The position numbers and the translations under genes were made by a program. A DNA stretch of 64,000 bases from Raoultibacter timonensis (GTDB lineage Bacteria > Actinomycetota > Coriobacteriia > Coriobacteriales > Eggerthellaceae): the NCBI RefSeq assembly GCF_900240215.1, contig NZ_LT964679.1, positions 2,707,322 through 2,771,321 on the forward strand, given 5' to 3'. Shown here in pieces: positions 16,422-36,408 of this stretch. How positions within the stretch are numbered: the stretch's first letter is position 1; every line of letters starts with the position of its first letter. Below the pieces are notes generated by a model. The model ran no database searches, was not told the origin of the DNA, and saw nothing but the letters and a program-made list of their open reading frames with translations.

Positions 16422-17669
16422 CTATTCCGCCTTGGGAACGAAGACGTTTTTCGTCCAGCAGTGGATGCCGCCACCAGCCATGTTGAGGGCCAGCGAATCG
16501 AGCATGACCACCTTGCGGTCGGGGAAGGCCGCCTGCAGCGCGGCTTCCGCCTGCTGGTCCTTCTCGCGAATGGCCTCGTCCATGCCCTCTTGCCAGTAGC
16601 GCTGGCCCAACACGATGCCGTTGCATACGAGGAAGTTGCAATAGCTGGTAGCGCCGAACAGGTGCAACTCGTCCTCAGGCCAAGGGGTGCCGTCCATGAA
16701 GGCGTCGCCCACCAGCTCATGGTAGTAGTCGTACAGGTCGTCGCCGGGGCGTTGCACGTACTGGATGTGAGCGGATGCCGGGATGCGCAGGATCTTGTAG
16801 GGATTGCCATCGACGTCGGTGGCCTTGGAAACCACCTCGTAGGCGGCATCGAGACGACGCTTGTTCTCGGCGGAGATGGCGTTTTCAGCCGCTTCCTCTT
16901 CGGTCACCTCGGCCAAAAGTATGGTATCGCGAGCTACGAAGCGACACATCTCGTCGGTATGAGCGGCGAAGCTGGCACCCACGATAGGGGTTCCGTCTTC
17001 CATGTAGTCGAGCGGAGCCATGCGGAAATCGTCGTCATCGTAAAGAGGCTGGGGCAGCCAGATGATCTTTTCCACGTTCCAGATGCGCTTGAACTCTTCT
17101 TCCACCTGATCGCGAGTAAAACCGGGATTGCGCTTGCGCACCTCGGTATCTTCGATGCACATCAGCACGCCGGCACCGTCGAACTCGCGGTCGCCGCCCT
17201 CGGAGACCATATCGGAGCTGATGATATCGTAGCAGCCCAGACCGACGGCGGAGTGCACGCCGATCTTACGGGAGAGGTCGCGCAATCCTTCGTTTTTCTC
17301 GTAACGCCCGTAGAAGCTCCAGCTCGGGTTTACCACCAACGCGTGTCCCTGGTCGTCCACCATGACGTTGGGGCCGTTATCGCGAAAATAGAAGGAATTG
17401 GGATCTTCGGGATACTGGGTGAAGTCGATCTTCTCGATATCCACTCCTGCAAAGGAAAGGGTTTCCTTGCAGTTCTGCTCCAAACCCTCAACCATAGGAC
17501 AGCAGTTGACGTGCACTTGCACATCACCGTATTCGATAAGGTTGCGGACCACCTCGGTCACCGGCTTCAAGGCATCGAACCCTTTGATGGGTTCGCCGTA
17601 AGGAAGCCATTCCACGAAGACATCGGTTTGCGGCTCGAATTCGCCCGGATATCTAAATGCACTAGCCAT
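16422..17669 (-). CDS. Agmatine deiminase-family guanidino hydrolase
   Basis: 415 residues, start ATG 17669 after a strong AGGAGG. It belongs to the agmatine deiminase/PAD_porph amidinotransferase-fold family. The N-terminus RYPGEFEPQTDVFVEWL aligns with EFEPQ...W of agmatine deiminase. Catalytic elements are all present: Asp in YFRDNGP, EGGDREFDG, His and Asp in AAHTDEM, and the nucleophilic Cys in AGGGIHCWTK at the C-terminus. The NNDAW segment next to the first Asp in enterococcal agmatine deiminase is NSFYF here, so specificity may differ. Reaction: guanidino compound to N-carbamoyl amine plus ammonia. It is first in the operon, followed by carbamoyltransferase, carrier and carbamate kinase. 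Confidence 0.85.
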   Translation of the reverse strand: MASAFRYPGEFEPQTDVFVEWLPYGEPIKGFDALKPVTEVVRNLIEYGDVQVHVNCCPMVEGLEQNCKETLSFAGVDIEKIDFTQYPEDPNSFYFRDNGPNVMVDDQGHALVVNPSWSFYGRYEKNEGLRDLSRKIGVHSAVGLGCYDIISSDMVSEGGDREFDGAGVLMCIEDTEVRKRNPGFTRDQVEEEFKRIWNVEKIIWLPQPLYDDDDFRMAPLDYMEDGTPIVGASFAAHTDEMCRFVARDTILLAEVTEEEAAENAISAENKRRLDAAYEVVSKATDVDGNPYKILRIPASAHIQYVQRPGDDLYDYYHELVGDAFMDGTPWPEDELHLFGATSYCNFLVCNGIVLGQRYWQEGMDEAIREKDQQAEAALQAAFPDRKVVMLDSLALNMAGGGIHCWTKNVFVPKAE

Positions 17670-17928
17670 GTTTCCTCCTACGTATGTAAAGGACGGCGTC
17701 CTTCTTTTCAGACGCCCATTGCCGCGAACTCTATGCCGTGCGAGTCCGTTTGCGAAGATAGAACCGGGTTGATTTTCCCGCTGACGAAATATCAACCGGA
17801 ATAAACCCGTATGTTATTGCCCAAGATCGGCCATAAGTACTAGAATGAGCGATCGCATTTATGCAGGCTCGCTCTTCTTGCGTAGAACCGCAGCGCTAGA
17901 ACAGCGCTCAACAGAAAATGGAGCACGT
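17670..17928. promoter_or_regulatory. Divergent control region of the guanidine operon and its LuxR gene
   Basis: Contains a small perfect dyad AAGGACG-G-CGTCCTT (17689-17703) in the leader of the deiminase gene. A wider dyad follows, CCGGGTTGAT (17764-17773) facing ATCAACCGG (17791-17799), placed between the two genes as expected for a shared operator. Promoter boxes are not clear enough to assign. Confidence 0.4.
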
Positions 17929-18888
17929 ATGGCCGCCGCAACATACTCCATCGCTATCTGCCTTGTCGCTGCTTGCATCGCGTCGTCCTTCGTGGCAATC
18001 TCCGCCTACATCGCTTCACGCAAGAAAACCTTGGCATATTTGGGGACCTTTTCTGCCATATACGGGGTGGAGCAGGCGCTTATCCTCTACAACGAGTACC
18101 TGACCCAAAACCTTCCCTTCAATGCGGAATGGGGTGCCATGGAGGACCCGTTTTCCCATATCGTGTTCGGGGCGGCGCTTTGCCAGTCTTTGTGGCTGGT
18201 AATACTCGATTTCACCAACGAGAATCGCTGGCAGTGGAAATACGGTCCCGTCCTCGGGTTTACCGCCATCTCGCTTTTGTTCTATGCGGCACCGGGCATC
18301 GATGACGCCATGCGCAAATGGGCCCTCTACAGCCTGCGGCAGTTTTTCCTTCTCGGAGGCAGCATCTTTTTCTGGCTGCGCTATCTAACCGTCGATTCTG
18401 CGCCGGAAAAAATCCGGTATCGCCGCAAAGCCCCTTACGTCCTCGTGTTCACCGTATTGGTGGTTTTGATCTTCTTGGAGGATGCGGTGGTTATGCTGCT
18501 CGTCAAAGAACCCGACCTCCACAACATCTTCTTGACGGAGTTTCTCTATCGGCGCAACATTTTCGAGATCGCGCTCTGCCTGTGCGCGATCGGCTATGCT
18601 ATTCGCAGCGCTCTGCGGATGCTGGAATTGAAGCGCAACGATGCGTATGCAACAGCCGATCAGCATCGAACGCGTGAGGCTTCCTCGTACTTTTCGCATC
18701 GTTACGGGCTTTCTTCTCGCGAGGAGGAGATTCTCGTTCTTGTGCTAGACGGCATGGACAACCAGCGCATCGCTTCTCATCTTCAGGTTTCGGTGGGCAC
18801 GATAAAAACCCATACCCATCATATATTCGAGAAGACCGGCACGGCGAACCGGGGCCAGCTGATCGAGAAGTTCTGGTCGGAATCTTAG
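17929..18888 (+). CDS. Membrane-bound LuxR-family regulator with 7-TM sensor domain
   Basis: 319 residues from ATG 17929, chosen for the GGAG seven bases upstream; an in-frame ATG at 17845 lacks a ribosome site. About seven hydrophobic helices (about residues 5-220) precede a LuxR/GerE helix-turn-helix (LSSREEEILVLVLDG, then VSVGTIKTHTHHIFEKTG). It is divergent from the deiminase operon and so is its likely local regulator. The membrane domain is shorter than the 12-TM form of the other three LuxR proteins in this window. Confidence 0.85.
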   Translation: MAAATYSIAICLVAACIASSFVAISAYIASRKKTLAYLGTFSAIYGVEQALILYNEYLTQNLPFNAEWGAMEDPFSHIVFGAALCQSLWLVILDFTNENRWQWKYGPVLGFTAISLLFYAAPGIDDAMRKWALYSLRQFFLLGGSIFFWLRYLTVDSAPEKIRYRRKAPYVLVFTVLVVLIFLEDAVVMLLVKEPDLHNIFLTEFLYRRNIFEIALCLCAIGYAIRSALRMLELKRNDAYATADQHRTREASSYFSHRYGLSSREEEILVLVLDGMDNQRIASHLQVSVGTIKTHTHHIFEKTGTANRGQLIEKFWSES

Positions 18889-18913
18889 CGGATGGAAGGC
18901 GGGAGCCGGGCCG

Positions 18914-19096
18914 ATAGCCAAAGCCGCAGCCATCGAGATTCACCGCCGTCAGATAGAACGGCACGAAGGCGCGGACACTATACGGGACGAGGGATTGCTC
19001 GAAGCTTCACTCACCCAATCGTGGCAGGGCTTCGGCGATATCGGCTACGATGATCCGCTCGCCTTCATCGGGACAGATAAACCGTCCGACACATAA
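18914..19096 (+). pseudogene. Remnant of a Doc (death-on-curing) toxin gene
   Basis: This frame reads IAKAAAIEIHRRQIERHEG then ADTIRDEGLLEASL, which matches the N-terminal helices of Doc/Fic-family toxins (H-x-RQI-x-x-HGG-x-x-GIRDEGLLESAL). It has no start codon of its own, runs out of similarity after about 40 codons, and stops at TAA 19094-19096 without the HPFxxGNKR catalytic motif. No antitoxin gene is seen. It is a decayed fragment just after the LuxR gene. Confidence 0.55.
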
Positions 19097-19099
19097 CGG

Positions 19100-19128
19100 T
19101 TGACGGGCTTGCTAAATTCCCCTATTAT
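19100..19128 (+). promoter_or_regulatory. Sigma-70-type promoter of the magnesium transport operon
   Basis: TTGACG (19100-19105), exactly 17 bases, then TATTAT (19123-19128). The predicted start near 19135 leaves an untranslated leader of about 265 bases before the gene at 19401. Confidence 0.7.
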
Positions 19129-19134
19129 CAACGG

Positions 19135-19400
19135 TGCCTTTGAACAGGCCTTGTCCGCAACGATTGGTAAAACCCAGCACGTGCGGCTTTTTTATTGCTT
19201 AAAGGAAAGGAAGTTACTTGAAGGTTCGAAAACCGAAACCTCACAGTAATTAGCCTTCGACTTCCCTTGTCGGCAGTCGAAGGACGACTGCGACAAAAAC
19301 ATCGGTACGCGACACATCCTATAAACGCACAGTTTGACCTGCGCGTTTTTCCATGGTTACGATGCGACGGATACCGATGCCGAAACGGTAAGGGAAAAGC
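19135..19400 (+). promoter_or_regulatory. Structured 5' leader, candidate attenuator or riboswitch
   Basis: The leader of the magnesium operon contains several hairpins. Near its start CCGCA (19155-19159) pairs with TGCGG (19182-19186), followed by a T-run (19188-19193), a terminator-like unit. Then TTACT (19214-19218) faces AGTAA (19245-19249) around an inner GGTT-CGAA-AACC. Last come two mutually exclusive stems sharing AGTCG: CCTTCGACT (19254-19262) with AGTCGAAGG (19275-19283), or GCAGTCG (19273-19279) with CGACTGC (19285-19291). This looks like a switching leader. It does not match the M-box or Mn riboswitch consensus as far as I can tell. Confidence 0.45.
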
Positions 19401-20753
19401 ATGCTCTATTTGTCACAAATGCTCGGCCGCCCTGTGGTCGACTCAACCGGCGAGAAAATCGGCACCATCGCCGATCTCGCCATCTCAACCGGCGAGGTAT
19501 TCCCCCGCATCACCAGCCTAGCCTTCTTAGGTCCCGGCAAGACGCCGTTCATGATCTCGTGGCGCAAGTACGTCGAGGAGTTCGACGAGGACGGCATCAC
19601 GCTCGGCGTCGAAAGCCACAACATCCGCTTCAGCTACCTGCAGCCCGACGAGATCCTACTCGCCCGCGACCTGCTGAACCGCCAGATCGTCGACACGCAG
19701 GGCATGAAGGTCGTTCGGGTCAACGATCTCAAGCTCTCCGAATCGGGATCGCAGCTGCGCCTGCTGGGTGCCGAGGTGGGTTTCCGCGGCATCCTTCGAG
19801 GGCTCGCCCCCTGGCTCGAGCGTGCGGTCGTCGCCGTGTCCAAGGTGTTCGGGAAAAAAATCGACGAGCAGATCATCGCTTGGAACTACATGGATCTCTT
19901 GGACCGCGACCTCTCCGAGGTGCAGCTTTCCGTCACGCACAAGCGCCTTGACGAGTTGCACCCCGCAGACGTTGCCGACATCCTCGAGCAGCTCGATCCG
20001 CAACAGCGCGCGAACGTCTTCCAACACCTCGACGACGCGCAGGCAACCGAGGCCATCTCCGAGATGGAAGACGAATACCAGGCCGATTTCATCGAAGACC
20101 TCGACGAAGCCCGCGCGGCGGGCCTGCTCGGCCAGATGGATCCGGACGATGCAGCCGATATCGTACGCGACCTTCCCTATGAAAAAGCCGAAGCGCTCTT
20201 GCGCCTCATGGGCGTCGAAGACGCAACCGAGATACGCAGGCTCTTAGGCTACAAGGACGGCACCGCAGGCGGCATGATGACCACCCAGTACGTGGCCGTT
20301 CCCGAAACCTATACGGTCGGCGAAACCATCGAGGTCCTGCGCGAGCTCGACGAGGACCACCCCACCGTCCACTACGTCTACGTGCTCGACGATTACGAGA
20401 AGCTCGTCGGCGTGCTTTCGCTGCGCACGCTCGTGCTCACCGACGATAGAACGCTCATCAAGGATGTCGCCTACGAAGACATTATCAGCGTGCCGCCCGA
20501 CGAAACCGAAGAAGACGTTGCAGCCGACATCTTCAAATACGACATTCCCGCCATGCCGGTTGTCGACGAGCACGGCAGCCTGCTCGGCATCGTCACGGTC
20601 GACGACGCCTGGGATGCCATCGAAGAGGACGTCAGCGGAGACAAGGCGAAGAAGCTCGGCCTCAAGATTGCGGGCGTCGCGCTCGTCGCAGTGCTCGTAT
20701 TGGCCCTGTACACCCTGGTCCTGTTCCAGATCATCGGATACGATTGGAGCTAG
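19401..20753 (+). CDS. PRC-barrel / MgtE N-domain / CBS-pair protein with one membrane helix
   Basis: 450 residues. Two PRC-barrel-like segments occupy about 1-160 (MLYLSQMLGRPVVDSTGEKI; LLNRQIVDTQGMKVVRVNDL). The MgtE N-terminal superhelical domain is about 175-290 (LHPADVADILEQLDPQQRANVFQHL) and a CBS pair about 300-420 (GTAGGMMTTQYVAVPETYTV; DIPAMPVVDEHGSLLGIVTV). A single C-terminal membrane helix is about 425-445. In MgtE the N and CBS domains sense cytosolic Mg2+ and gate a five-helix pore; that pore is absent here. Three bases downstream is an NRAMP-related transporter, so this protein is probably a separate Mg2+-sensing partner of it. Start ATG 19401. Confidence 0.82.
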   Translation: MLYLSQMLGRPVVDSTGEKIGTIADLAISTGEVFPRITSLAFLGPGKTPFMISWRKYVEEFDEDGITLGVESHNIRFSYLQPDEILLARDLLNRQIVDTQGMKVVRVNDLKLSESGSQLRLLGAEVGFRGILRGLAPWLERAVVAVSKVFGKKIDEQIIAWNYMDLLDRDLSEVQLSVTHKRLDELHPADVADILEQLDPQQRANVFQHLDDAQATEAISEMEDEYQADFIEDLDEARAAGLLGQMDPDDAADIVRDLPYEKAEALLRLMGVEDATEIRRLLGYKDGTAGGMMTTQYVAVPETYTVGETIEVLRELDEDHPTVHYVYVLDDYEKLVGVLSLRTLVLTDDRTLIKDVAYEDIISVPPDETEEDVAADIFKYDIPAMPVVDEHGSLLGIVTVDDAWDAIEEDVSGDKAKKLGLKIAGVALVAVLVLALYTLVLFQIIGYDWS

Positions 20754-20756
20754 ACC

Positions 20757-22136
20757 ATGACGCCCAAGAACCGTTCCGATAAGACGACGCGGGAATGGGG
20801 CATCTTCCGTATGGGAAGAATCGATTCCCCGAAGGCTCAGACCGACGCGCCCCTCGCAGCAACCGACGACGCCAACGCAACCGAACACGCTGGGAAAAAG
20901 CCGAGCAAGCTCTGGCTTCTGCTTGCGGCGATGGGTCCCGGCATCATCACCGCCATGGCCGGCAACGACGCTGGCGGCATCTCAACGTACTCGACCGTCG
21001 GAGCGAAGTTCGGCTTCGCAACGCTGTGGGTCATCCCCGTCATGTGCGTGCTGCTTGCCGTCGTGCAGATGACCGCCGCCCGCATGGGCGCCGTCACCGG
21101 CAAAGGGTTCGCCGCGCTCATCCGCGAGCGATTCGGTATCCGGCTTACGGCACTCGCCATGCTCGCACTGCTCATCGGCAACGTGGCCACCACGTTCTCC
21201 GAATTCGCCGGCATCGCCAGCGGCATGGAGATGTTCGGCGTGTCGAAGTTCATCTCGGTGCCCATAGCCGCCATCGCCGTATGGCTGCTTGTGGTAGGCG
21301 GCAGCTACAAGCGCGTCGAAAAGGTGTTCCTCATTCTCTCGCTCGTGTTCGTCACCTACATCATCGCGGCGTTCATGGCAAAGCCGAACTGGGATGAAGC
21401 TCTGCTTTCGACGGTGGTGCCCCATGTGGTGAACGATACGAGTTTCATATCGCTCGTCATCGCGATGATCGGCACGACCATCGCTCCCTGGATGATGTTC
21501 TTCTCGCAGAGCAACGTGGTAGAAAAGGGCGTGGGCGTGAAGGATTTCTTCTCGCAGAAAGTCGATGTGATATCGGGCACCGTGGCCGCCTGCCTCGTGG
21601 CCTGGTTCATCATCGTGACCACGGGCGCAACGCTCTTTCCCGAGGGAATCGAGATCACAAGCGCTGCCGACGCGGCCCACGCGCTCGCGCCGTTCGCGGG
21701 GCAGTACGCCGAGGCGCTCTTCGCCATCGGGCTCATCGCGGCATCGTTTCTCGCCGCATGCGTGCTGCCGCTTACAACCTCGTTCGTCATCTGCGAGGCA
21801 TTCGGCTGGGAGGCCGGGGTGAGCTTCAAGTGGAAGGAAGCGCCGCTGTTCAAGGGCATCCTCACGTTCGTCATCATCTTCTCGGCCGCCGTCGTCATCA
21901 TCCCGAACATCGATCTTCTGGGCGTCATGCTCACGGCGCAGTTCGTCAACGGCATCATCCTGCCGGTGCTGCTCGTGTTCATGGCGATTATCGCCGCCGA
22001 CAAGCGTGTCATGGGCGCCTACAAGAGCAAGCCCGTCACCCGCATCCTCATCTGGGCGACGGTGGCCATCGTGACCGTGCTTACCGTGGCGCTCCTCGTC
22101 ATGCAGGTGCTCGGCATCGGGGACGTGGCGGTGTAA
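20757..22136 (+). CDS. NRAMP-related magnesium transporter (NRMT type)
   Basis: 459 residues with about eleven membrane helices after a hydrophilic N-terminal tail of 50 residues. Helix 1 reads GPGIITAMAGNDAGG, where classical NRAMP proteins have the DPGN motif. Helix 6 reads TTIAPWMMFF where they have MPH. Loss of the helix-6 Met removes the thioether ligand that favours Mn2+ and Fe2+. These substitutions are the hallmark of the NRMT branch, whose characterised member is from Eggerthella lenta and carries Mg2+. The gene is coupled to the MgtE_N/CBS protein upstream (3-base gap), supporting Mg2+ as substrate. ATG 20757 is the likely start; an in-frame ATG at 20811 is possible. Confidence 0.82.
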   Translation: MTPKNRSDKTTREWGIFRMGRIDSPKAQTDAPLAATDDANATEHAGKKPSKLWLLLAAMGPGIITAMAGNDAGGISTYSTVGAKFGFATLWVIPVMCVLLAVVQMTAARMGAVTGKGFAALIRERFGIRLTALAMLALLIGNVATTFSEFAGIASGMEMFGVSKFISVPIAAIAVWLLVVGGSYKRVEKVFLILSLVFVTYIIAAFMAKPNWDEALLSTVVPHVVNDTSFISLVIAMIGTTIAPWMMFFSQSNVVEKGVGVKDFFSQKVDVISGTVAACLVAWFIIVTTGATLFPEGIEITSAADAAHALAPFAGQYAEALFAIGLIAASFLAACVLPLTTSFVICEAFGWEAGVSFKWKEAPLFKGILTFVIIFSAAVVIIPNIDLLGVMLTAQFVNGIILPVLLVFMAIIAADKRVMGAYKSKPVTRILIWATVAIVTVLTVALLVMQVLGIGDVAV

Positions 22137-22207
22137 GGGCGGCAATACGCCGCGCCCCTGCGGCAGCCACGCTGAACGAGCAGACCGTCCGCCTCGATGC
22201 GCACAGA

Positions 22208-22261
22208 TTGTCGGCCCAAAAACACGGTTTCGCGGCGAAAACCGTGTTTTTGGGCCGACAA
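22208..22261. terminator. Long hairpin after the magnesium transport operon
   Basis: A perfect 23-bp stem (TTGTCGGCCCAAAAACACGG plus TTT) with an 8-base loop CGCGGCGA, starting 71 bases after the transporter stop. It probably ends the operon. The length and perfection also suit a small dispersed palindromic repeat; no second copy occurs in this window. Confidence 0.6.
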
Positions 22262-22332
22262 TGTTTATTGTGCGCTCGATTCCGTCTGACAGCGGGAAAA
22301 AGCAGGCGCATGAGACAATGCGATGAGACCGT

Positions 22333-23403
22333 GTGGGCTTAGATGGCGGTGATGCGCAGGTGAAAACCAATGACACCGAATTGATTCGGCTTTTTCAACA
22401 GGCCGAACATGGGAGAATGTGCCTGACTCCCCCTAACCAGCGCCTTCGCGAAGCGCTTCGACGCCGAGTCGAACGCGAGGAAGTCATCCGGCCGGCACGG
22501 GGCATGTACGCACGCGCCCCGTACTGGAACGCGCTTACGAGACCCCAGCAAACTCTCTGCATCTTGCGTACGCTGCAGAGCCAGCATCCTACCTGGACGT
22601 TCTGCCACGAATCGGCCGCCGTAGTATTCGGTTTGCCGGTTTCGTACAGAAGACTGGACTCTGTCTGCGTCGCAACATCGCGAGCGAACCGCAATCCCCG
22701 ATCGGGGAGCATCCGTTGGCATATCGTCGAAGGCGACGAACCGGTCACGGTACAGGGCCTTCGCGTGACATCGCTGCAAAGAACTGCTTTCGACTGCATG
22801 CGAACCGTCGATTTCGGGCAAGCGCTCGCCATCGCGGACGGCGCACTGCGCGTAAGCGGATGTTCGGCGAGTTCGTTCATCTCACATTTCAGGCGAATCG
22901 GCGGCAGCCACACGGGGAAGGCTCATGCCATGAGAACGATGCGCTATGCTGATGCCCTCAGCGAAAGCGGTGGCGAATCCATTGCACGCGCAGCGATGAT
23001 CCAACAGGGATTCGCACTTCCCGAGCTTCAGGTCGCGTTCCCTCAGCCTTTGCACCGGGGACGCACCTACCGCGTCGATTTTCTTTGGACCCGGCTGGAC
23101 GGAAGCAAGGTCATCGGCGAGTTCGACGGCATGCAGAAGTACGAAGATGAGACGATGCTCAAAGGGCGCTCCATGCTGCGCTCGCTCGTCGATGAACGGC
23201 ATCGGGAAGCACAACTCACCTTGTACGGAATGCCAATTGTACGGCTCTCGTACAACGACGTGGTTCACGCGAACCGTTTCACAAAGCTGTTGAGGCAATA
23301 CGGCATTCCACAAAGCGACGAAGTCGCTCGATTTGTGCGGCGTGCAGCCCGATCCCGATCGACGGCAGCGCAGATATTCACTGTATGCAATCTGGCCGAC
23401 TGA
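22333..23403 (+). CDS. AbiEi-like / PD-(D/E)XK-like orphan protein
   Basis: 356 residues from GTG 22333; the exact start is uncertain because no clear ribosome site is present and a second in-frame GTG lies at 22360. The N-terminal half (about 35-200) resembles the winged-helix and following domain of AbiEi-type antitoxin proteins common in actinobacteria (TPPNQRLREALRRRVEREEV, then RPARGMYARAPYW). The C-terminal half has YRVDFLWTRLDGSKVIGEFD followed by GRSMLRSLVDERHREAQLTL and PIVRLSYNDVV, a DUF559/VSR-like endonuclease-fold pattern. No AbiEii-type toxin is adjacent. Function unknown; a solitary antitoxin-like or nuclease-like defence protein is possible. Confidence 0.6.
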   Translation: MGLDGGDAQVKTNDTELIRLFQQAEHGRMCLTPPNQRLREALRRRVEREEVIRPARGMYARAPYWNALTRPQQTLCILRTLQSQHPTWTFCHESAAVVFGLPVSYRRLDSVCVATSRANRNPRSGSIRWHIVEGDEPVTVQGLRVTSLQRTAFDCMRTVDFGQALAIADGALRVSGCSASSFISHFRRIGGSHTGKAHAMRTMRYADALSESGGESIARAAMIQQGFALPELQVAFPQPLHRGRTYRVDFLWTRLDGSKVIGEFDGMQKYEDETMLKGRSMLRSLVDERHREAQLTLYGMPIVRLSYNDVVHANRFTKLLRQYGIPQSDEVARFVRRAARSRSTAAQIFTVCNLAD

Positions 23404-23518: not shown

Positions 23519-26500
23519 CTACCTCATGTCGCGCCTGCGCTTCTTGTGCGCGGCCGCAGCGCCCAGGGCAAGAGCAAGCGCCGCGATCGCGCCGACGAGC
23601 ACCACCGTCACAACAAGCGGATCACCCGTGCGCACGATGTTCGAGATCAGGCCGATACCCGCAGGCGTTTGCGGCGCGATGCGAACATCGACGGTGTTCG
23701 AGCGGTACTCGGCCTCGATACCGTTCGCACCCGCAGCAGATACGAGCGCGGTGTTCGAAATGATCGAACCGCCCGGGGCCGAAGTGTCCACCCTGACCTT
23801 GAAGCTATACACGGTTTCGCCGACGGCCGTGGGATCGATGGTCCATACGATCGCATGCCGTGCCTCATCGTAGGTGCCGCCCTCGGTGGCTGAGCCGTTC
23901 ACGTACGACACGGAGGCCGGCAGCGGGTCGACGAGCGTCGCGCTCGTGAACGCCAGCGGGTCGGACAGGTCAACCTTGAGCGTGTACTCGAGTTCCTGAC
24001 CCGGCTTCACCTCTTCGCCTTCTTCCACGTTTACCGTCTTCTCAACGCCCATCCACATCGCATGAAGCGTCACATCGCCGTGCATGGCAATCGTATCGCC
24101 CGGCTTGAAATGGGTGCCGGTGCCGTCGGGCTCGGTGTTCCACCCAACAAAGTGCGATTTCTCCTTGGCGAGCGGCGAGCCGTCGCCGAGCAGCGCACGC
24201 GTCATGGTGTCGGGCGTGCCGACGTTGTCGAGCACGGTGGCGACCTCGTCGTCGTCGTAGATGACCGCATCGACGGGAGCCGAGCCCGTATCGGCCGCAC
24301 CTTCACGGTAGATCACCCGATACTCGTTGATGGTCACCTCGTCTTCGACGGTGTTCGATTCGTAGGCCCCGCTTGCCACCGTAACCTCGGCGGTGTTCTC
24401 AACGAGCGCACCCGTTTGCGCATCCGCATCGACGATCACCTCGAAGGTGAGCGTGATGGTTCCGGGACCGCTGGGATTGAGCGTCCAGACAACCTCGTCG
24501 CCAACCAGCTGGCCTCCCATGTTCGCGCTGCTTCCCTCATAGGACGTCCCCGCAGGCACCGCATCGGACACAGTGATCGCCTGGGCATCGGGAACGGCAA
24601 CCTCGATGGTGTAGCGCAGCTTCTCATTCGGCTTAAGCGGCGCCGTCGGCTCGTCTTCCGCCGAGCTTTTCTCTATACCGAGCCATTGGGCGTAGAGGTC
24701 GAGCCCGCCCTCGGGTACAGCCGCCGCATCGCCCGCGTCGTAGTGCGCGCCCGTACCGTCCGCTTGGGTGTTCCATCCGGCGAAGTGCATGCCGTCGGCA
24801 ACGAGCGCGGGAGCGCCTTTGTTGTCGAGCACCGTGGCGTCCGCGTCGACGAGGTAGTAGCCCTCGTCGACAGGCGCGGTGCCGCCCGTAGCACCGTTTC
24901 CGTGGTAGGTTACCTGCGCGGTCAGGGCAGCGGTGTCGTTGGTTTCCGTGGAATCGTAGCTGCCCCACTCGTCTGCCGCGATGGAGGCCTTGTTCTTAAC
25001 CGGCAGCTGCGTGGTCCCCGAGACGATGTCGGCATCGGCGGTGGCTGTGAAGCCCACCGTCACCACATCGCCCGCGCTCACGTTGCTGATGGTCCACACG
25101 ATGGTCCGCGTGCCGTCGGTGTACACGGCCTGCGAACCGGCGCTGTCGTCGTCGTAGGTGAGTCCCGCAGGAACCACATCGGTGATCTTCAGATCGCCCG
25201 CAAGGCCCATCGGCACCGTTACCGCAATCGAGTAGGCAATCTGCTCACCGGGCTGCAGGTAGGTGTCATCCGCGTTTTCCTTCGCCGATGTTTTCACCGC
25301 CTGCGACCACATGGCATACAGGTCGAGATCCGCCGACAGGTTGAGCGTTGCTGCAGGCGCATAGTGCGTACCCGATCCGTCGGCCGCGGTGTTCCAGCCG
25401 ACGAACGTCCAGCCGTCCTTCGCAAGCGATGCGCGCCCGAGCACAACCACCTGCTCGGTCGGAAGGTAATTGTTCGGATCGCTCGGCGCCGTGCCCTCAT
25501 CGGAGCCGTTGCCGTGGTAGGTGACCGTGTACGACGTGCCCACAGGATCCTTCTTCAGGTTGGTCTGGTAGGTCGATCCGCCGTACGCGACGTCGGCTAC
25601 GTTGGTAATCTCGTCTACGCTCTCGGCATCCTCGCCAAGCGTCACCGTGAACGAAACCGTGAGCTGCGTGTCCTTGGCAAGCGTGCCGATGGTCCAGGTG
25701 ACCTTCTTATCGATCGCGTTGTAGGCTCCCTTAAGCCCCGCATCAGCCCCGTTGACAAGCAGGCTTCCCGCTTTGAACGAGGTCTCGGCCGGTACGAGAT
25801 CGGAAATTACGAGATCGGTCGCATCTTCAGGCAGCGTGACTGCAATCGTGTAGGTGAGCTCTTCGCCGCGTTTGAGATCGGTATTGCCCGTATGCTCCTT
25901 GGCCGAGGTCTTACTGGCCACGAGCCACATAGCCCACAGCGTCATGTTATCGGTAGGCGTTATGTTCTCACCCGCCTTGTAATGGGTGCCGGTGCCGTCG
26001 GCTTTCGTGTTCCAGCCTGCGAACACCTTGCCGCTATAGGCGAGCGGTACGGTCTGATCGTTTGCTGCCGCCGCCGCAGAAGAGCCCATCACGACGGTCT
26101 GATCGTCGGGCACATCGCCTACGGCCCCGTTCGCCTCGTAATCGATCGTGAGCTTCTGAGCGTTCTTCAGCGCGAAGCCCGTCGCCGCAGAACCCGTTAC
26201 CGAGGGGTTCCAGAGCGTATCGGCCACATCGGTGTTGTCGACCTTGGTCTCGACGAGCTCGTAGGCGATCGGATCGGTGTAGCCCGAAGCGCTTTCGTAG
26301 CCGCTCACGTGCCCCACCTGGATCGTCCACGATCCGTCGCCGTTCACCGTGACCGTACCGTCCGAACAGGTCGGGTTTCCGAGAGCGGGCACGTCCACCC
26401 ACACGCTCTTAGTCGTCTGGTCGCCGTCCTCGTCGGTGTTGCGCAGTTCGAACTCGATGCGCGAACCCGCGCTTGCACCCGTGGGCATCACCCACGTCTT

Positions 26501-29500
26501 GGTCACGCCGACCGAAATCCAATCCTGCAGCTCGATCGTGTCGGCGAACACGAGCGACTGTTCCATCTTGAGGTTCGCGGGCACCGTGGCTCCGAGCTTG
26601 AAGTGCTCGCGTTCGGCGGCGACCGAGCCTGCATAGGTGCCAACGTCGAATTCTGCGATGGGGCGGGTGCGCTCGGCACGGTCGACGTTGACGAGCAGGG
26701 CACCCGTCCCCGACACGGCTCCGGGAAGCTCCTTCGTCACCTCGATGGCGCGGTCGGCCCATACGGGGGTTTCCGACGTACCCGTGTTAGCCGAGGCAAG
26801 ATAGATCTCATGGCCTGCGAAGCTCGCATCGGTGATGCTGGCCAGTTCGAACTTCGCACCGTCGTGGTAAACGCCCGAGCCGCGCGCAGCCTCGTTGCCC
26901 GCAAGCGTCGCATCCTCGAATCGGACGGTCGCGCGGTTGGACACCGCTCCGCCGAACACCGTCGCTGATACGTTCTTGTTGTTCTGCAGCACCGCTCCCC
27001 CGTAGAGCTGGAGGTTGCCGCTGCCGCTCGTTACGATGAGCGGAGCCTCGGCGGATACGCCGTTCGCGGTTGCCTTCGGGCCGATATCAGAGCCTGCCAC
27101 ACGATTCTTGTGGCCGTCGATCACGAGATCGTCCACCGCGAGCACGCCGCCCGTCACTTCGATGAGGGTTCCCGTATGGCTTTCCTTATCGAAGCCGGGA
27201 AGGCTCGCGTAGGCGTCAGGCCGCGAGTAGCGCTCGATGGTGATGGAGTTGCCCGTGAGCACCGTTTCCTCGGGATCGCCCATGAGCCCCGCCGTGTACG
27301 AGGTCGAGGTGATGTACGCCGAAGCGTCCATGGTGACGGTGTTCACCACGTAGATCGTGCCGGCGTTCTCCTGCTCGGCAACCTTGTAGGCCTGCGAGAG
27401 CGTTTCGACTGCGTTCTCGGGATCGAATCCCGTGTTCGTGTTCAACCCGTTTACACCGTCGACGTACACGCCCGCAACGAACTGCAGCTCGAGCATGTTT
27501 TCGGCTCCGCTGCGGTTGCCAAGCGAGTACACGGCGCTCACCTGATCCTCAAGGCGGTACAGCTTCTTGTCGGTCGCACCGGGGTTCGTGCCGCTTGCGG
27601 GGTATTCTACAACCGGCCGACCTCGGTACACATCTTCGAGCGTGATGGAAAACGGCGTGCCGCCCGAATTCATGATGCCGCGCTCGCGCGCCGTAATGAA
27701 CGCGCTGTTCTGCGGCGCGGACGTGCTGCCCGTGCCCGCGAGATAGATTTCGTCGGTGAGACCCAGGTAGCCGCCCGCCAACTCGAGCGTGCCGGCCTGA
27801 TAGATCGAATCGCCGAATTCGGCCTGCGTGTTGGTGGTCGAAGCGTTCGTCAAGAGGGCGCTTCCGCCCTTCTCGACGCGCACCGCGCCGCCCTTGCCGC
27901 CTGATGCGACGTTGTCGTTGTTGACGACCGTCGTAAACGAACCGGCAAACGATCCGCCGTCCGCAACGGATATCACCGGATCCAGCGCGTCGACGCCGTC
28001 GGCAGCGAAGGGAGCGGTACCCGAGAAGGGTTCGCTGTGGCCGTCGAAGGGCATGCCCTGGCACTCGAAGGTTCCGGCCACGTTGAACAGCGTGCCGTAG
28101 TGCGTTGGCGCGGTGTAGCCGACAAGCGTGTTGTGCGCCGTCGGTTGGGCGTAGCGGCGGATGTACACTGTGCCTGCGGTTTCCACCTCATCGGATTTGC
28201 CTTTGTTGTACACCGACAGCTCGTCGGTCGCGTTGTTGGTCAGCGAGAAAGAATCGCCCGGCTGCACCGTCACCGTGTTGACCACGATGATGACGCCGCC
28301 GCCCGACCCGTCGGGGCTGAACGCCTCGGCGGCCTTGAGCAGCTCGTAAGCGTGCTCGAGCGTGTCGACCGCCGTGTCGGGCGTTTCGCCGTTGTTGCCG
28401 GGAAGCCCGTTCACGCCGTCGAGGTAGACGACGCCCTTCTGCTGGAGTTCGAGGATGTTGCCCGCAAGGTTGCGGTTGCCGAGCTTGAACAGCGCGGCCA
28501 CGTCGGGTTCGAGCCCGAAGTAGGCCGCCTGCGCGGTTGTCGGCACAGAACCGCCCGGATACTCCACCACCTCGCGGTGGTTGTAGGGGTTCTCGAGCGC
28601 GATCGAAAGCTGGCCGGAGGGCACGTAGGCGTCTTCGACGTTCACGATCGAGCTGAAGCCCGCGCTGACATCCGACGTCTTGGTGCCGGTCAGATACACC
28701 GATCCGCTGATCGACGAAGTACCCGCCAGCATGGTGAGCGTGCCGTTCTGGTATATCGCCGCTCCCTTGCCCGCCTTGGTCTGCGCGATCGCAGCGGTGT
28801 CAGCGATCGTGGTTGCGCCCTCGTTGAAGATGGCGCCGCCCTTGCCGCCCGTGGTGTAGTACGTCCCGGATGCGGAACCGTCGGTGTTGTCGTTGAGCGA
28901 AAGCGCCGCGTTCACACCGAGCTTGAAAGAGGCGCCCAACTCGACCTTCACGAGCGAGCCGCCCGTGATCTCGTCGATGTCGCGGCGTCCGTCGATGGCG
29001 ATATCGGTGAGCTCGAACGAGCCGCCCGACTCGACCGTAACCAGTTCGCCGAGGTAGGCCGGATACGCCGTACCAGTCAGCGAGAAGCCCGTATAGCGAA
29101 TGATACGCGAGGTCATCTCGACAATACCGTCGCCATCGGTGTCGATGAGACCCTCGGAAAGCGTCCACGTCTCGCTGCCCGTCACGATCATGGGGCCGCT
29201 GACGAAGAACACGGTATGCGTCAGATCGTTACCAGCCGCAAGCTCCTTGGACTTCGCCTCGGCAAACGACTGGTACGGCGTTGCCGGCGTTGCGCCGTCG
29301 CGCTGCCCGGAAGGCACCGAGGTCGTGGAGTCCATGAAGATGTACGCCTTGAGCACAAGGTTCGGCGCCTGCTTCTCAAGCACGAAACCGGGAGCGCTCA
29401 CCTCGAAGTAGCGGTAGTACGCCGTTGCCGTTCGGATGACGTCGCCATCGGGCACGACCACGGCATCGCCCTTCCTGAACGGACTTGACGACAGGCTGGT

Positions 29501-32500
29501 CGTTGTGGGAACGTCAACCTTGTACAGGCGGTCCTTCTGATAGATGCTGCCCGCAAGCGTGATGGCGTTGTCGCGCGTCGTGAGGAAGATGCGGTCTTCA
29601 ACGGTCGTGCGACCGCCCTTGAGGGTGAAGTTCGGCGAATCGACATAGATTGCCGCGTTCTGCTTTGACGCTTCGGCGCCGGTAACAGTGCGATTGTTCT
29701 TGATCGTGCCGCCCGCAAGCGTGAAAGCGCCGTTCTTGTCAACGTACACCGCCGACCCCCAGGTGGCTGCATTGCCCTCGATGGTGCCGTCGGCCATGAC
29801 GAAGGTGCCGTTGCCGACCATCACCGCGCCGCCGCGGAAGTAGCGCAGGTTGGTCGCCGTATCTTCGATGGAGCCGCCGTTCATGGTGAGCGTGACATTC
29901 GCCGCCGCAAGGTGGAAGCCCGCTCCGTACACCCAGGAATTGTTCGGCTGACCCTCGTTCTTTACCTCGTTGTTGCGAATGGTCGCGCCAGCTATGGTTG
30001 CATCGGTCGCCACCGTGTTCGACGCGGTAAGATACACCAGTCCGCCGTAGATTGAACCCGTGCCAACCTGCGAGACCACGTTGTCCTCGACAACGGTCGT
30101 GCCTGAAAGCGTGAAAGCAGACTGCGAAATGTAGAACAGCCCGCCCTGCACCTGGGAATCGGTGCTCAGGTGGTTGTCGCGAATGTGCGTGTCGTGGATC
30201 GTCAGGCTTCCCCCAGCCGACCGGAACAGGCCGCCCATCAGCGAGTATGATCTCGTCCCCTCAGAGATGATGCCGTGGATCGACGAGTCAGTCACGCTCA
30301 TGGTTCCCTGGTTGGAGAACAACGGTGCCACACCCGTCACATGCACATCGGTCACCTCGACGTTACTCATCCTCAGCGTTCCGGCGTTGTTGATCACAAA
30401 CGCGCTGCCGCCTGCAGAATTAGATGTTCTGATATCCCTGAAGCCACCCCCGTTCATGGTGACCGTTCCCGTGGCACCCACGCTGAGTGCACCGCCGTAG
30501 GACGAATGGGTCAGAGCGTTGGTGAACTCCACATTCGTGAGGTTCGCGACCCCAAGCCCGTCCACGGTCATGATCTGCTGCCGGGTATCCTGAACCGCCG
30601 GCCTGGCATCATCGAACGTCAGATTGGCCGCAACGAATGGCGTCGGCGTAGCGGTAACCGAGATCAGTATGCCTTTGTAGTTCTCTTCGCGCTTGATCAA
30701 GGGCTGCCACGTATCGCCCTTGTCGTTGGTGAACAATCCGCCTTCCGGAAGGCTCCAATCAAGATCGTTGATGCCCTTGGAGGCAAGGTACGGCTCGACC
30801 ATGTAGTTGCAGATGTAGATATCGCCGCCCTTCTCACGGGTCTTCAATATCTCGAGCGCTCGCGCGAACGTGCGTACCGGGGTGCTCGGGCTTGCCCCGT
30901 TGTTCGCATCGTCGCCCTCGGCTGCCGCACCGTAACTGTTGTTGCCCGCGATATACACGTCGCGTCCCGGAATGACCACGATGTACGTCTCGTCGGCATC
31001 GGTTCCGTGCACGATGCCGTAATCCCTTGGGATGTTGTCGGTCGTCTGGTACAGGTCGTAATAGTCGGTCGCATCAGCCACGCCGCGCGCCGCATCGGGC
31101 CCGACAACGCGATGGCCGACGAACGCCTGGATGTAGGCGAGTTTGAACTTGCCCGCCGACAGCTCGTCGATCGGGGTGCCGAGCTCGTTGGTCAGCGTGA
31201 TGATGTTGCCCTCGTACGCCAGATACGTCTCATCGTCGATCTCGGCGTTGGCATCGATGAACAGAGCGCCCTTCGTCCAGATGGACATGCCCTTCGTTAT
31301 CGTGCCGCCTTGGTTGTTGCGCAGGATCGAGGTGCCCGGCCCCATGGAAAGCGTGGGTCCCTGATCGAGTCGGACGCCGTTTTGCCCGTTATCGGATATC
31401 GATGCCGAACCGGTCATGACGATATCATAGTCTGAGAGCCTCTCGGTCGTGTAATCGGTGATGTATATGCCGCTGTTCTTGTACCCGCTGATCGTCGCCT
31501 GATCGGTCAGCGTGATCGTGCCGGCGGTGTAGTAGGGGATGTCGCTTGCCCTCCTCACGTACACGCCCTGCGACTGCCCGTTCGAGAAGCGGGCGTTGTC
31601 GGAAAGCGTCAAATTCGTGCCCGAAGCATAATCCTCGTACGCAGGGCCGCTCATCGCGTTGTCGATGTAACTGTCCCCAGAAAACGTCACGTTTGCGGCA
31701 GGACCGCTCGCCGCTTCGCGCAGATCCATGAACACGCCTCGATCGCACGAGTCGATGCCGGCGTCGTCGGTAAACGTGACGGCGAGGTCGGTGTACGCGA
31801 GCGAGCCCGACCCGCCCGCATAGATGCCAAACTGAGAGAGATCGATCTTCGTCCGTCCGGAGAGATCTGCCGAAACGCCCTTGCTCGATCCGAATCGCAG
31901 GGCGCTGGAGAACCCGCTGATCGTCACGTCGTCTTTCGCCGTGAGCTTCGGTCCCGCAATCGCATCGGATCCGCCTGCGGCATGGTAGCCCACGCCCCGT
32001 TTCGCCGTGATCGATTCGATGCGCGCAAACCCCTGCAAGATCACCTCGGCATCGTTTGCCGCATAGATGCCCGTGCCGCCATCGACAATGATGGTCGGAT
32101 GGGAAGCATCGGTATCGGACGACGTTCCCACAACGGCTTTCGCGCCGTCCAGCACCTCGATGCCGAGCGACCCTTTCGCCTCGATCACGCTTTCGTCTTC
32201 CATGACCACCGAGGTCTTCATGAGCGGCCCGTTCGAACCTGATACCGAAACGCCCGCCCGTCCGGCATAACCGAGGTTCGATGTCGTCTCGCAGGTGATA
32301 CGCGCCTGATCAGCCAGACGCGCCGTCGATCCTGCGGTAAGGGTGATGGCATCGTTGCGGTGGCTGCTCAAAACGCTGTCGCCCTGCATGACGATCGACG
32401 ACTGGCCTTTCATCCTGATGCCGTATTGGAAGTTGTTGGACACGACGCTGCCGCTGTCGAGCACGACCGATGCGCCCAAATCGATATCGATGATCGCATC

Positions 32501-35500
32501 GACGCCACCGGCGGTCGATGAGGTGACGTTGGGGTTCTCAGGGCTCACCGCCTCGGCCATGCCGTTGACCACGATGTTCTCGAGCGTCAGGCTTCCTGAG
32601 CCGCCAAGCGCGGTCACCATGGTTCCGTAGTAGCTCGCAAAGCGTTTGACCTGCGGGAACCATTCGGAATCGTACGCCTTGTGCTGCTGGGTGTACGCGG
32701 AGTCGTTCTGGTAGTCGAGCGACCACACCTGCGCGTCGATCACGCGAACCTCGCCGCATATGTAGATGAACGGCTCGAACGTCTGGGCGGCGGGAACGCT
32801 CGCCGCGTTGGCGTCGGCGATGCGCTCACGCAGAATCTGCTCGGCCCGCGCATAGGTTGCAACCGCATCGTCGGGACTCGTGCCCCCGTTGGTAACGTCG
32901 TTGCCGCCCATGCCGTCGACGTAGACGCCCTCGCCGACGAGAATGATGTTCTTGTTGAAGCCGCCCAATGTCGTCTTAGGAGGAATGGTGCCGCCCTCGA
33001 ACGTCGCAACATAGGGCGAGGCGTCCTCGAGTTCGTAGGTCTGCCCCGCAACCGTCACCGATCCCACCGGCTCGACCACCGTCGATCCCACTTCGAACAC
33101 CTCGGTGTTGACCGAGATGGGCAGACTCACCGAAGAGCCGGGTGCATCGAGCAAGAGCAGGCGGCTGAGCGCCGTGTTCAAGAAGAAGTTGTTGTTGTCG
33201 AGCGTGAGCTGGTTCGCATCGACGTACACCTTGCGCGCATGGTTCGCTGGGATGTCTACGAACACCCCGCCCGTCGTCGGCGCAGACGCCCCGAACCGCC
33301 CGCCGAGCAGATAGGCCTCGTCGGCAAAATACGCGTTGGAAGAAGCACCATCGGTGCACAGGTTGTCGGTTACGTCGCCCGATTTCATGGTGAAGGAGCC
33401 GCCCTGGAGCGAGATGCCGCCACCTTCCGAAACGGCCTCGTTGCGCGCCGTCGTCGTTGCGCCGTCCATGGTTACCGTTCCCGCCGCCACGTAGAGACCG
33501 CCGCCCGAACCGGTGGCTACGTTGTCGGTTATGGTGCAGTCGGTCAGCTTGAGAACGCCGCTGGCGGTGTGGATGCCCGCACCGAGGGGGGCACTACCCT
33601 TCTCGATTACGACACCCCCGAGGATAACGTCTCCCCGGGATTCGTACGTCGAAAGGTTTCCACCGTAGCGCGTTGCGATGTTTGAGGTGAACACGATGGA
33701 GCCCGGAGAAGAAGCAATGGCCTTGATGTTCGATCCGTGGATCGCGCCGCCGTATTCAGCTTTGTTGCTATCGAACGTTGCCGCCGTCAGATCCATGGTA
33801 ACCGTCGAGCCGGTTCCGACGGCACCTGCGTAGGTTCCGGTGTTCGATTTGAAAGTCGCGCCTGTAATGCGCAAGCTCGCATCGTCGGTAGCATAGACAG
33901 CTCCGCCGTTGCGTCCGTAATTCGATTCGAATAACGCGCCTCCCGAAATGTCGACGGAGCTGTACCTGTACGCGGCAATGGCGCCGCCGAGACCGTACTC
34001 GCCGACCTGGTTGCTCTTCATGGTGCCGCCGGTCATGATGAATTTTGCATTCTCATGCAGGCTCACGGCTCCACCGCCACCCGAGCGCGAAGTAGCCTTG
34101 TTGGCCTCGAACGTGCCGCCCGACATGGTGACGGTGGATGCCCCTTTCGCATACAGTCCGCCACCATGGCTGGACGTCGACGAGGACGAACCCGAGGTGT
34201 TGTACGACTGGTTGCCCGTGATCAAAGCCGTGCCGCTGATCGCCACCGTCGCATCGCCCACGGATATGCCCGCTCCGTAATCGCCGGAAATCGGGGCGCC
34301 GCGGCTGTACTGGTAGTTGTTCAGAACCGCGCCGCCCGACATGGCAAACACGGTGTTTGCAGGCTGGTACGACACGCCCTTGATGCGCACGCCCTGCGAA
34401 CGGTAGCCGATCTCGCCGCCGGTCATGGTGAACGTCGTCTTCTTGCCAGCTGCGCCCTGAACATCAACGCCGATACCCACAACGGCTGTCGAAGTCGTCT
34501 CGGAACCGAGTATGCGGGTGCCGTCGTTCATGTTGAACGTCGCGCCTGGCTGCACGAGCACCGTGCGGCTGTCCGCCGAAGGCGATGTGTCCATCTGGAT
34601 CGTGATGTCGGATGTGGTGAGCGTCGCGCCCGCGGGAACGCGGATCATGTTCGAAGTCAGCGTTGCCGCCTGCGCGGATTCGTTGTGCTTGTGGTCGGGG
34701 TCTCTGCAGATCAACACCCTGGCATCGGGGAAGGTGGCCACAGGAAGCGACCAGGTTTCTGATCCGTCGATCGTCACGGTGTCGCAGATGTAGATGACAC
34801 CGCGACCTTGCAGGTTCGTGTGCTCGAGCAGCTCCTTGGCACGGTCGAACGTCTTCACCGGGAAGCGGCAGTTGCCGCCGAAATTCTCGTCGTCGCCCTT
34901 GCCCGACAGGTAGATGGCTTCGTACTGGAAACTGCAGTACAGCTCGAGCTTCGTTATGTCGAACACGCCAGCAGGGTCGCCCGCCAAAGTCGGGCCCTCG
35001 TTGTCGTATACGAGCTGCCAGTTGTATGCGGTGTTGCCGCTGTTGAGCTGGAAGTACGGCTTGATATCGAGTCCCGGGACCGTCGTTTCGACCACGTTGA
35101 GGTACTGGTAGTTCAGGTTGTCGGCGATGCCCGAGTAGTACAGCGTGTACACGGTGCCGGGGTTCGGCGTGGCCGTGAGCTGCAAGGGGTTGTAGATGGC
35201 GCCTGTGCCCGCATCGCTTCGGCCCCAATCGTCGAGGTCGGTCTGGATCGCTCCTTCAACGCTGACGTTCTGGCCGATGTTGAGCTGACCGCCCGTGTTT
35301 TCGATGCCTCCGATGATGCGCATCGTACCCACCACCGGATCGCCGACGATCTTCACGTCCTTCAGGGTGAGCGTTGCCGCGCTCGATCCGTCGCCCTCGT
35401 CGGGCACGAGGAACAGCTCCTCGACCGTCTTGTCCCAGAACGTGAAGGTGACATCGTTGTTGAGCGTCGATTGGGGATCGATGCCGTCGATGGTCATGTT

Positions 35501-36313: not shown

Positions 36314-36408
36314 CGGAATCTCCCTTCGAAAGATCGTCGCACGCCGAATCGCGATCAAGCCCCCAGAGCCTTCGTGGTCGACGCGGATCGGTCTGATCTA
36401 TCGTTCAC

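Follow-up and report, generated by a model that had tools for sequence, protein, structure and literature searches.

A putative MgtE-derived sensor encoded beside an NRMT-type transporter in Raoultibacter timonensis

The gene pair and its products

Raoultibacter timonensis (Coriobacteriia, Eggerthellaceae) carries a gene pair in which a protein built from the cytosolic domains of the Mg2+ channel MgtE precedes a transporter of a different fold. The pair lies in a stretch of 64,000 nucleotides, hereafter the window (contig NZ_LT964679.1, positions 2,707,322 to 2,771,321, forward strand). The first gene, named here the sensor gene, is followed by the gene of NRMT, a Mg2+ transporter related to SLC11/NRAMP proteins (Table 1). 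The arrangement is best read as a two-gene Mg2+-import operon, in which NRMT would be the transporter and the upstream protein, of MgtE descent, a regulatory subunit that does not itself conduct.

Pfam searches assign to the sensor two stretches of PRC barrel (PF05239, E 4.6e-12), an MgtE_N domain (PF03448, E 1.2e-29) and a CBS pair (PF00571, E 3.7e-17). The MgtE structures 2oux and 2yvx are matched at E 1e-39. The MgtE pore (PF01769) has no match in the protein and none anywhere in the host genome, and a second MgtE_N protein was not found in that genome. The downstream open reading frame (ORF) is an Nramp protein (PF01566, E 8.9e-84). Its best match in the PDB is 7qia, the EleNRMT of Eggerthella lenta (E 4e-233), with 364 of 418 residues (87%) identical. 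The DxxG-TxxA/T signature of NRMT proteins (PMC8806188) is present as D71-A-G-G74 in helix 1 and T240-T-I-A243 in helix 6; NDAGG stands in place of DPGN and GTTIAPW in place of MPH. EleNRMT is a proven Mg2+ transporter, and Mg2+ transport without proton coupling has been shown for EleNRMT only (PMC8806188). The NRMT of the window very probably transports Mg2+ as well. A preliminary description of the locus had named PRC, MgtE_N and CBS domains with one helix and no MgtE pore, followed three bases downstream by an NRAMP-related protein with DAGG and IAPW; the domain searches, the genome-wide absence of PF01769, the hydropathy profile and the motifs bear out both readings.

Three nucleotides (ACC) separate the two ORFs, which share one frame, and the likely Shine-Dalgarno (SD) sequence of NRMT, GGAG at 20746-20749, lies within the sensor gene. 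A consensus scan found two promoter-like sites versus 1.0 expected, which makes the promoter call weak by itself. Rfam hits to mir-999, on the terminator repeat, and to Hrs10 scored under the gathering cut-off and were dismissed as chance. A separate canonical Nramp and two CorA genes are encoded elsewhere in the host genome.

Numbering and roles of the Mg2+ ligands at sites Mg4-Mg7 follow TtMgtE (PMC5882242). Seven of its eight cytosolic ligands (E59, D91, D95, D226, D247, D250, E258, D259) are present in the window sensor, E258 being replaced by glycine. Of 73 detached sensors, 85-96% have an acidic residue in the columns of E59, D91, D95, D247 and D250, compared with an average of 54% for other acidic TtMgtE columns (p 0.007 by rank test). 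Loss of the ATP pocket was considered as a hallmark of detached sensors and dropped, since true MgtEs differ from one another at F227 and D188 too.

Linkage to NRMT and loss of the MgtE pore

An NRMT alignment was searched against 84,980 species genomes, blind to the neighbouring gene, and the best 80 loci were kept. For 71 of the 77 loci with enough upstream sequence, the next gene upstream, on the same strand, is the sensor gene, often overlapping NRMT or ending within 30 bases of it. At one further locus it lies 1.4 kb upstream. Five of the 77 have no sensor; two of these are from Clostridium and carry an M-box directly before NRMT. The loci come from about ten phyla and one archaeon; the archaeon, Acidobacteriota, Bacillota, Chloroflexota, Thermodesulfobacteriota and Omnitrophota are represented among those with the pairing. 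No sensor-NRMT gene fusion was seen among the 80 loci. Sixty relatives of the host genome comprise 48 with both genes, 10 with neither, two with the sensor only and none with NRMT only (Fisher p 9e-10, a value that overstates independence because the genomes are related). The MgtE pore domain is absent in 59 of these 60. The pairing is far above chance, and a functional tie between sensor and NRMT is very likely. Linkage could also arise through shared Mg2+ regulation if the sensor had a different target, whether some other Mg2+ protein or a component of signalling. CorA is present in the host genome as well, and orphan relatives of the sensor exist: long forms in the family f2, soluble ones that neighbour mrp and DUF1003-like genes, and long pseudo-pores lacking an NRMT nearby. 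An independent target is nevertheless quite improbable, as NRMT never occurs without the sensor in Coriobacteriia (48/48) and gene order and spacing are constant across many phyla.

The orphans fall into several groups. The f2 loci hold a long pseudo-pore sensor and no NRMT (L049 4028-5851, L050 103-2031), in L049 with the leader described below. Soluble PRC-MgtE_N-CBS proteins occur in other Actinomycetota (L061, L063, L064, L067, L074, L079; L098-L102, L088), frequently close to mrp genes; a DUF1003-like gene encoding two helices begins at the sensor stop codon in L102. Long pseudo-pore sensors of another actinomycetal lineage (L065, L073, L075, L080; L089, L093, L094, L097) have no NRMT within a few kb. 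In L181 (6214-6819), NRMT is followed by a gene for a short protein that corresponds to the sensor's PRC part alone.

The partner of NRMT occurs in three shapes. Outside Coriobacteriia it is usually soluble, with about 410-440 residues and no anchor. Eggerthellaceae possess a one-helix form. Most other Coriobacteriia and two other Actinomycetota pairs have a long form of about 600-650 residues, the relatives ranging from 600 to 660, with a C-terminal domain of five helices that Pfam does not recognise. Profile comparison aligns this domain with the membrane domain of true MgtE over 166 columns (probability 97.7%, E 1.9e-12); NRMT, shuffled and reversed controls reach 0.1-0.3%. An AlphaFold model of a long form aligns through both halves (residues 182-615) to full-length MgtE 2zy9 (Z 26.8), with a root-mean-square deviation of 8.3 that is large, so the angle between the halves differs.

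The pore residues have been lost. Asp432 is found in six of six true MgtEs and in none of 42 long forms, where Met or Val mostly takes its place. The motif GGN(T/S)G(S/T)Q has also disappeared, its GG being retained in 0/42. Mutation of the Mg1 site abolishes conduction by MgtE (PMC5882242). With the pore Asp lost, the long forms should not conduct, and the pseudo-pore is in all likelihood closed to ions. The long relatives were first candidates for intact MgtE channels, with Eggerthellaceae swapping the pore for NRMT; this was ruled out, as the long forms also precede NRMT and have neither PF01769 nor the pore residues. A related proposal grants them conduction through an altered pore, in which case the operon would encode a pair of Mg2+ importers, with the one-helix form left as a decayed remnant. 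Five helices and the MgtE fold are retained, and the f2 genomes keep a long form without NRMT; set against the loss of Asp432 and the pore motif in 42/42 and the good conservation of the one-helix form throughout its family (65-100% identity), this proposal is highly improbable.

A tree built on the MgtE_N-CBS region places the Coriobacteriia partners in one clade (support 100/99). The one-helix clade of Eggerthellaceae (100/99) is nested within the long forms of Coriobacteriia. Long Actinomycetota forms join next (95/83), and true MgtEs are a weakly supported sister (82/42). Because of this nesting, the one-helix form is read as a truncation, most simply a pseudo-pore protein reduced to a single helix. 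One-helix forms in a few other families (L040, L041, L043) suggest that the reduction happened more than once. The term 'detached', used in the preliminary description, suits the one-helix end state; most Coriobacteriia partners still carry the degenerate membrane domain.

A proposed Mg2+-dependent brake on NRMT

In the proposed mechanism, the MgtE_N-CBS module binds cytosolic Mg2+ and would compact at high Mg2+ as it does in MgtE. The helix would hold the sensor at the membrane, where it would contact and restrain NRMT, probably by favouring one conformation of the cytosolic gate. The sensor would thus be a Mg2+-dependent negative regulator of NRMT activity, a reading to which a probability of about 0.6 is assigned. 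A gating subunit for another transporter fold, as first suggested for this locus, is the best explanation of the linkage, the retained ligands and the pseudo-pore relatives; the idea itself is not new. Shin et al. (2014) reported that most NrmT genes adjoin a gene for the MgtE cytosolic domain and proposed cytoplasmic feedback or a chaperone role (PMC4072509).

Several observations weigh against such a brake. The NRMT of Clostridium acetobutylicum rescued a Mg2+-starved strain without the partner (PMC4072509), and EleNRMT alone transports Mg2+ in liposomes (PMC8806188). NRMT is thus active by itself, and the partner would be at most modulatory. Co-expression of the Acidobacterium capsulatum partner, in a pair mainly moving manganese, did not improve rescue further in the single co-expression test of that study (PMC4072509). 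The D226 column is poorly kept, being acidic in 40% of the 73 detached sensors. The plug-helix ligand E258 is lost in one-helix and soluble forms; E258/D259 are kept in 22/22 long Coriobacteriia forms and not in the other two shapes, which fits a plug that has no pore left to face. Two f2 genomes keep a long partner without any NRMT. An AlphaFold model of the sensor-NRMT pair read through as one chain (88 aligned rows) gave a mean predicted local distance difference test score (pLDDT) of 87.5 and a predicted template modelling score (pTM) of 0.71; as a single chain it has no inter-chain error map, no control pair and not the expected sensor dimer. Two unrelated halves would be expected nearer pTM 0.5, and the long form alone reaches 0.50, so that the model hints at a preferred sensor-NRMT arrangement and is given little weight.

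An alternative is a helper role, in which the sensor is a Mg2+ buffer, a chaperone or an assembly or stability factor that binds or hands over ions without closing NRMT. Strict genetic linkage suits any obligate helper, the partner is soluble and anchorless in most phyla, chaperone activity is the alternative named by Shin et al. (PMC4072509), and isolated EleNRMT is reported to be rather unstable when in detergent (PMC8806188). NRMT nevertheless folds and transports without its partner, and a stabiliser needs no MgtE gating-site ligands, yet these are kept above other acidic positions. A helper role is considered unlikely, and regulation of NRMT by the sensor is the preferred reading.

The leader and its relation to known systems

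The sensor gene is preceded by a leader with a short upstream ORF (uORF), two competing stems and a hidden SD (Table 1). Of 78 non-redundant sensor leaders from Coriobacteriia, 70 share the uORF, against 0-5 of 78 in shuffled sequences and 0 of 34 leaders outside the class. In the host genome it is present as a single copy in a pattern search allowing up to three mismatches. Its length varies from 7 to 13 codons across Coriobacteriia, in steps of whole codons. The peptide is MKVRK[P/S/Q/H]KPHSx in Eggerthellaceae, MK(x)PRPHS[R/S/C] in Atopobiaceae and Coriobacteriaceae, and MSGLDHPHSC or MNEHPHSN elsewhere; third positions of the P and H codons vary, the residues being constant.

The stems were scored by a helix search with permutation controls, which replaced a MAFFT alignment that misplaced stem A owing to variable loop lengths. 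Across species, the arms co-vary in stem A (21.4 vs 16.2 +/- 0.64 permuted) and in stem B (14.5 vs 12.7 +/- 0.38 permuted), and so does the helix of SD and anti-SD arm in 69 leaders (18.9 vs 14.7 +/- 0.34 permuted). The predicted minimum free energy fold of the whole leader hides the SD (z -4.4, 0/200 shuffles), and the first 44 leader bases folded alone favour stem A. Masking of the first arm in a static fold calculation left the predicted SD pairing unchanged; any switch must therefore be kinetic. Stem A may form first and hold the anti-SD strand in its loop, leaving the sensor SD exposed. A ribosome that has reached the uORF end (...PHS-x-stop) would cover the first arm of stem A, allowing stem B and the SD helix to form, with low translation as the result. 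On the conserved peptide and co-varying stems, the leader is probably a real translational regulator, placing sensor synthesis under a leader-peptide switch.

Response of the leader to Mg2+ is slightly favoured. The link rests on the operon it controls and on a tandem in three Coriobacteriia, in which an M-box (RF00380) precedes the uORF in one leader (L033 756-964, L034 1202-1410, L036 G043 C27:76027-76219). Expression at low Mg2+ is suggested by analogy with enterobacterial precedents. The M-box itself, which precedes operons of this type in Bacillota and Thermodesulfobacteriota, has no match at 18800-22500 of the window or in the host genome, and the window leader is a separate element. The leader also precedes the orphan long sensor of f2 (L049), which has no NRMT; it thus belongs to the sensor gene, not to NRMT. 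In several Eggerthellaceae a tRNA gene lies just before the leader (L103 3406-3479, L109 3346-3419; L006, L010, L014, L018). The window has no such tRNA and keeps a terminator-like remnant (about 19155-19192).

Table 1. Features of the sensor-NRMT locus and neighbouring genes (positions of the window)
Feature	Positions	Strand	Description
Sigma-70-like promoter	19100..19128	+	TTGACG-17-TATTAT (10/12); candidate start of the operon transcript
Leader uORF, TTG...TAG	19218..19253	+	peptide MKVRKPKPHSN; purine-rich SD AAAGGAAAGGA at 19201-19211
Stem A	19254..19283	+	CCTTCGACT 19254-19262 with AGTCGAAGG 19275-19283; first arm directly 3' of uORF stop
Anti-SD arm	19262..19272	+	TTCCCTTGTCG; between the arms of stem A; pairs with 19386-19396
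Stem B	19273..19291	+	GCAGTCG 19273-19279 with CGACTGC 19285-19291; mutually exclusive with stem A
Sensor SD segment	19386..19396	+	CGGTAAGGGAA; contains SD GTAAGGG; sequestered by anti-SD arm
Sensor gene	19401..20753	+	450 residues; two PRC barrels, MgtE_N, CBS pair, one C-terminal transmembrane helix, no MgtE pore
MgtE_N domain	19956..20258	+	residues 186-286; E217, D249, D253 = TtMgtE E59, D91, D95
CBS pair	20277..20606	+	about residues 293-402; D381, D402 = TtMgtE D226, D247; then D405 = D250
Single transmembrane helix	20667..20735	+	about residues 423-445 by hydropathy; AlphaFold helix 400-444
NRMT gene	20757..22136	+	459 residues; NDAGG and GTTIAPW; ortholog of EleNRMT
Near-perfect inverted repeat	22207..22262	.	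likely (bidirectional) terminator of the operon, 3' of NRMT
Deiminase gene	16422-17795	minus	agmatine/peptidyl-arginine deiminase family (PF04371)
Regulator gene	17845-18888		LuxR-type, containing membrane helices; immediately 5' of the operon
Giant surface protein gene	23519-36358	minus	single ORF of 4279 residues; repeats (beta-helix-like, InlB/DUF11-like by eye), C-terminal membrane segment

Very short leader ORFs with alternative stems and a sequestered ribosome-binding site (RBS) upstream of a Mg2+-transport gene are known from mgtL, mgtP and mgtQ. In Salmonella, translation of the 8-codon mgtQ controls exposure of the RBS of mgtB (PMC8092293). The switch proposed for the window would follow the same principle. 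The window peptide differs in being basic and in ending with PHS-x, in place of early Asp/Glu; it belongs to an unrelated operon in Actinomycetota. The combination of uORF, competing stems and hidden RBS was not found in Rfam, and the open-access literature, the part searched here, yielded no paper on a Mg2+ leader of Coriobacteriia (subscription papers lay outside the search).

The closest relatives of the operon are those of C. acetobutylicum (CA_C0685) and A. capsulatum (Acp2976-2977), in which NRMT also lies directly downstream of a gene for the MgtE cytosolic domain and feedback has been proposed (PMC4072509). Compared with their description in the accessible part of that paper, the window partner has a TM helix (a five-helix pseudo-pore in relatives) and two PRC barrels, and the operon has a leader-peptide switch and no M-box. 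EleNRMT shares the DxxG-TxxA site and has been studied alone, with no mention of the neighbouring sensor gene in the accessible text (7qia and others, PMC8806188). The MgtE channel (2zy9, 5x9h) shares the MgtE_N-CBS module with its Mg2+ ligands, and the membrane fold of the long relatives; N-terminal PRC barrels, the missing conducting pore and a separate transporter partner set the present system apart. The pairing and the feedback idea were already published as speculation in 2014 (PMC4072509). The present analysis adds the series of pseudo-pore forms, the retention of the ligands, figures for the linkage and the leader switch. Later functional work on the MgtE fragment was not found in the open-access literature, subscription papers being outside the search.

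SLC11 proteins are, to our knowledge, not otherwise known to have sensor subunits. Tentatively, an MgtE of Coriobacteriia may have lost conduction, become a Mg2+-sensing gating subunit of the LeuT-fold NRMT and then been cut to a sensor with one helix in Eggerthellaceae; with the leader-peptide switch on the same operon, Mg2+ would control both synthesis and activity. What the MgtE fragment does next to NrmT has been a standing question since 2014, and protein pairs for a direct test are now at hand, among them EleNRMT, whose structure is solved, with its partner. The leader is also of interest as a possible Mg2+ switch acting through translation in common gut bacteria, which are not enterobacteria. 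The series from conducting MgtE through a degenerate membrane domain to one helix would represent a natural route from a channel to a regulator of a different transporter fold.

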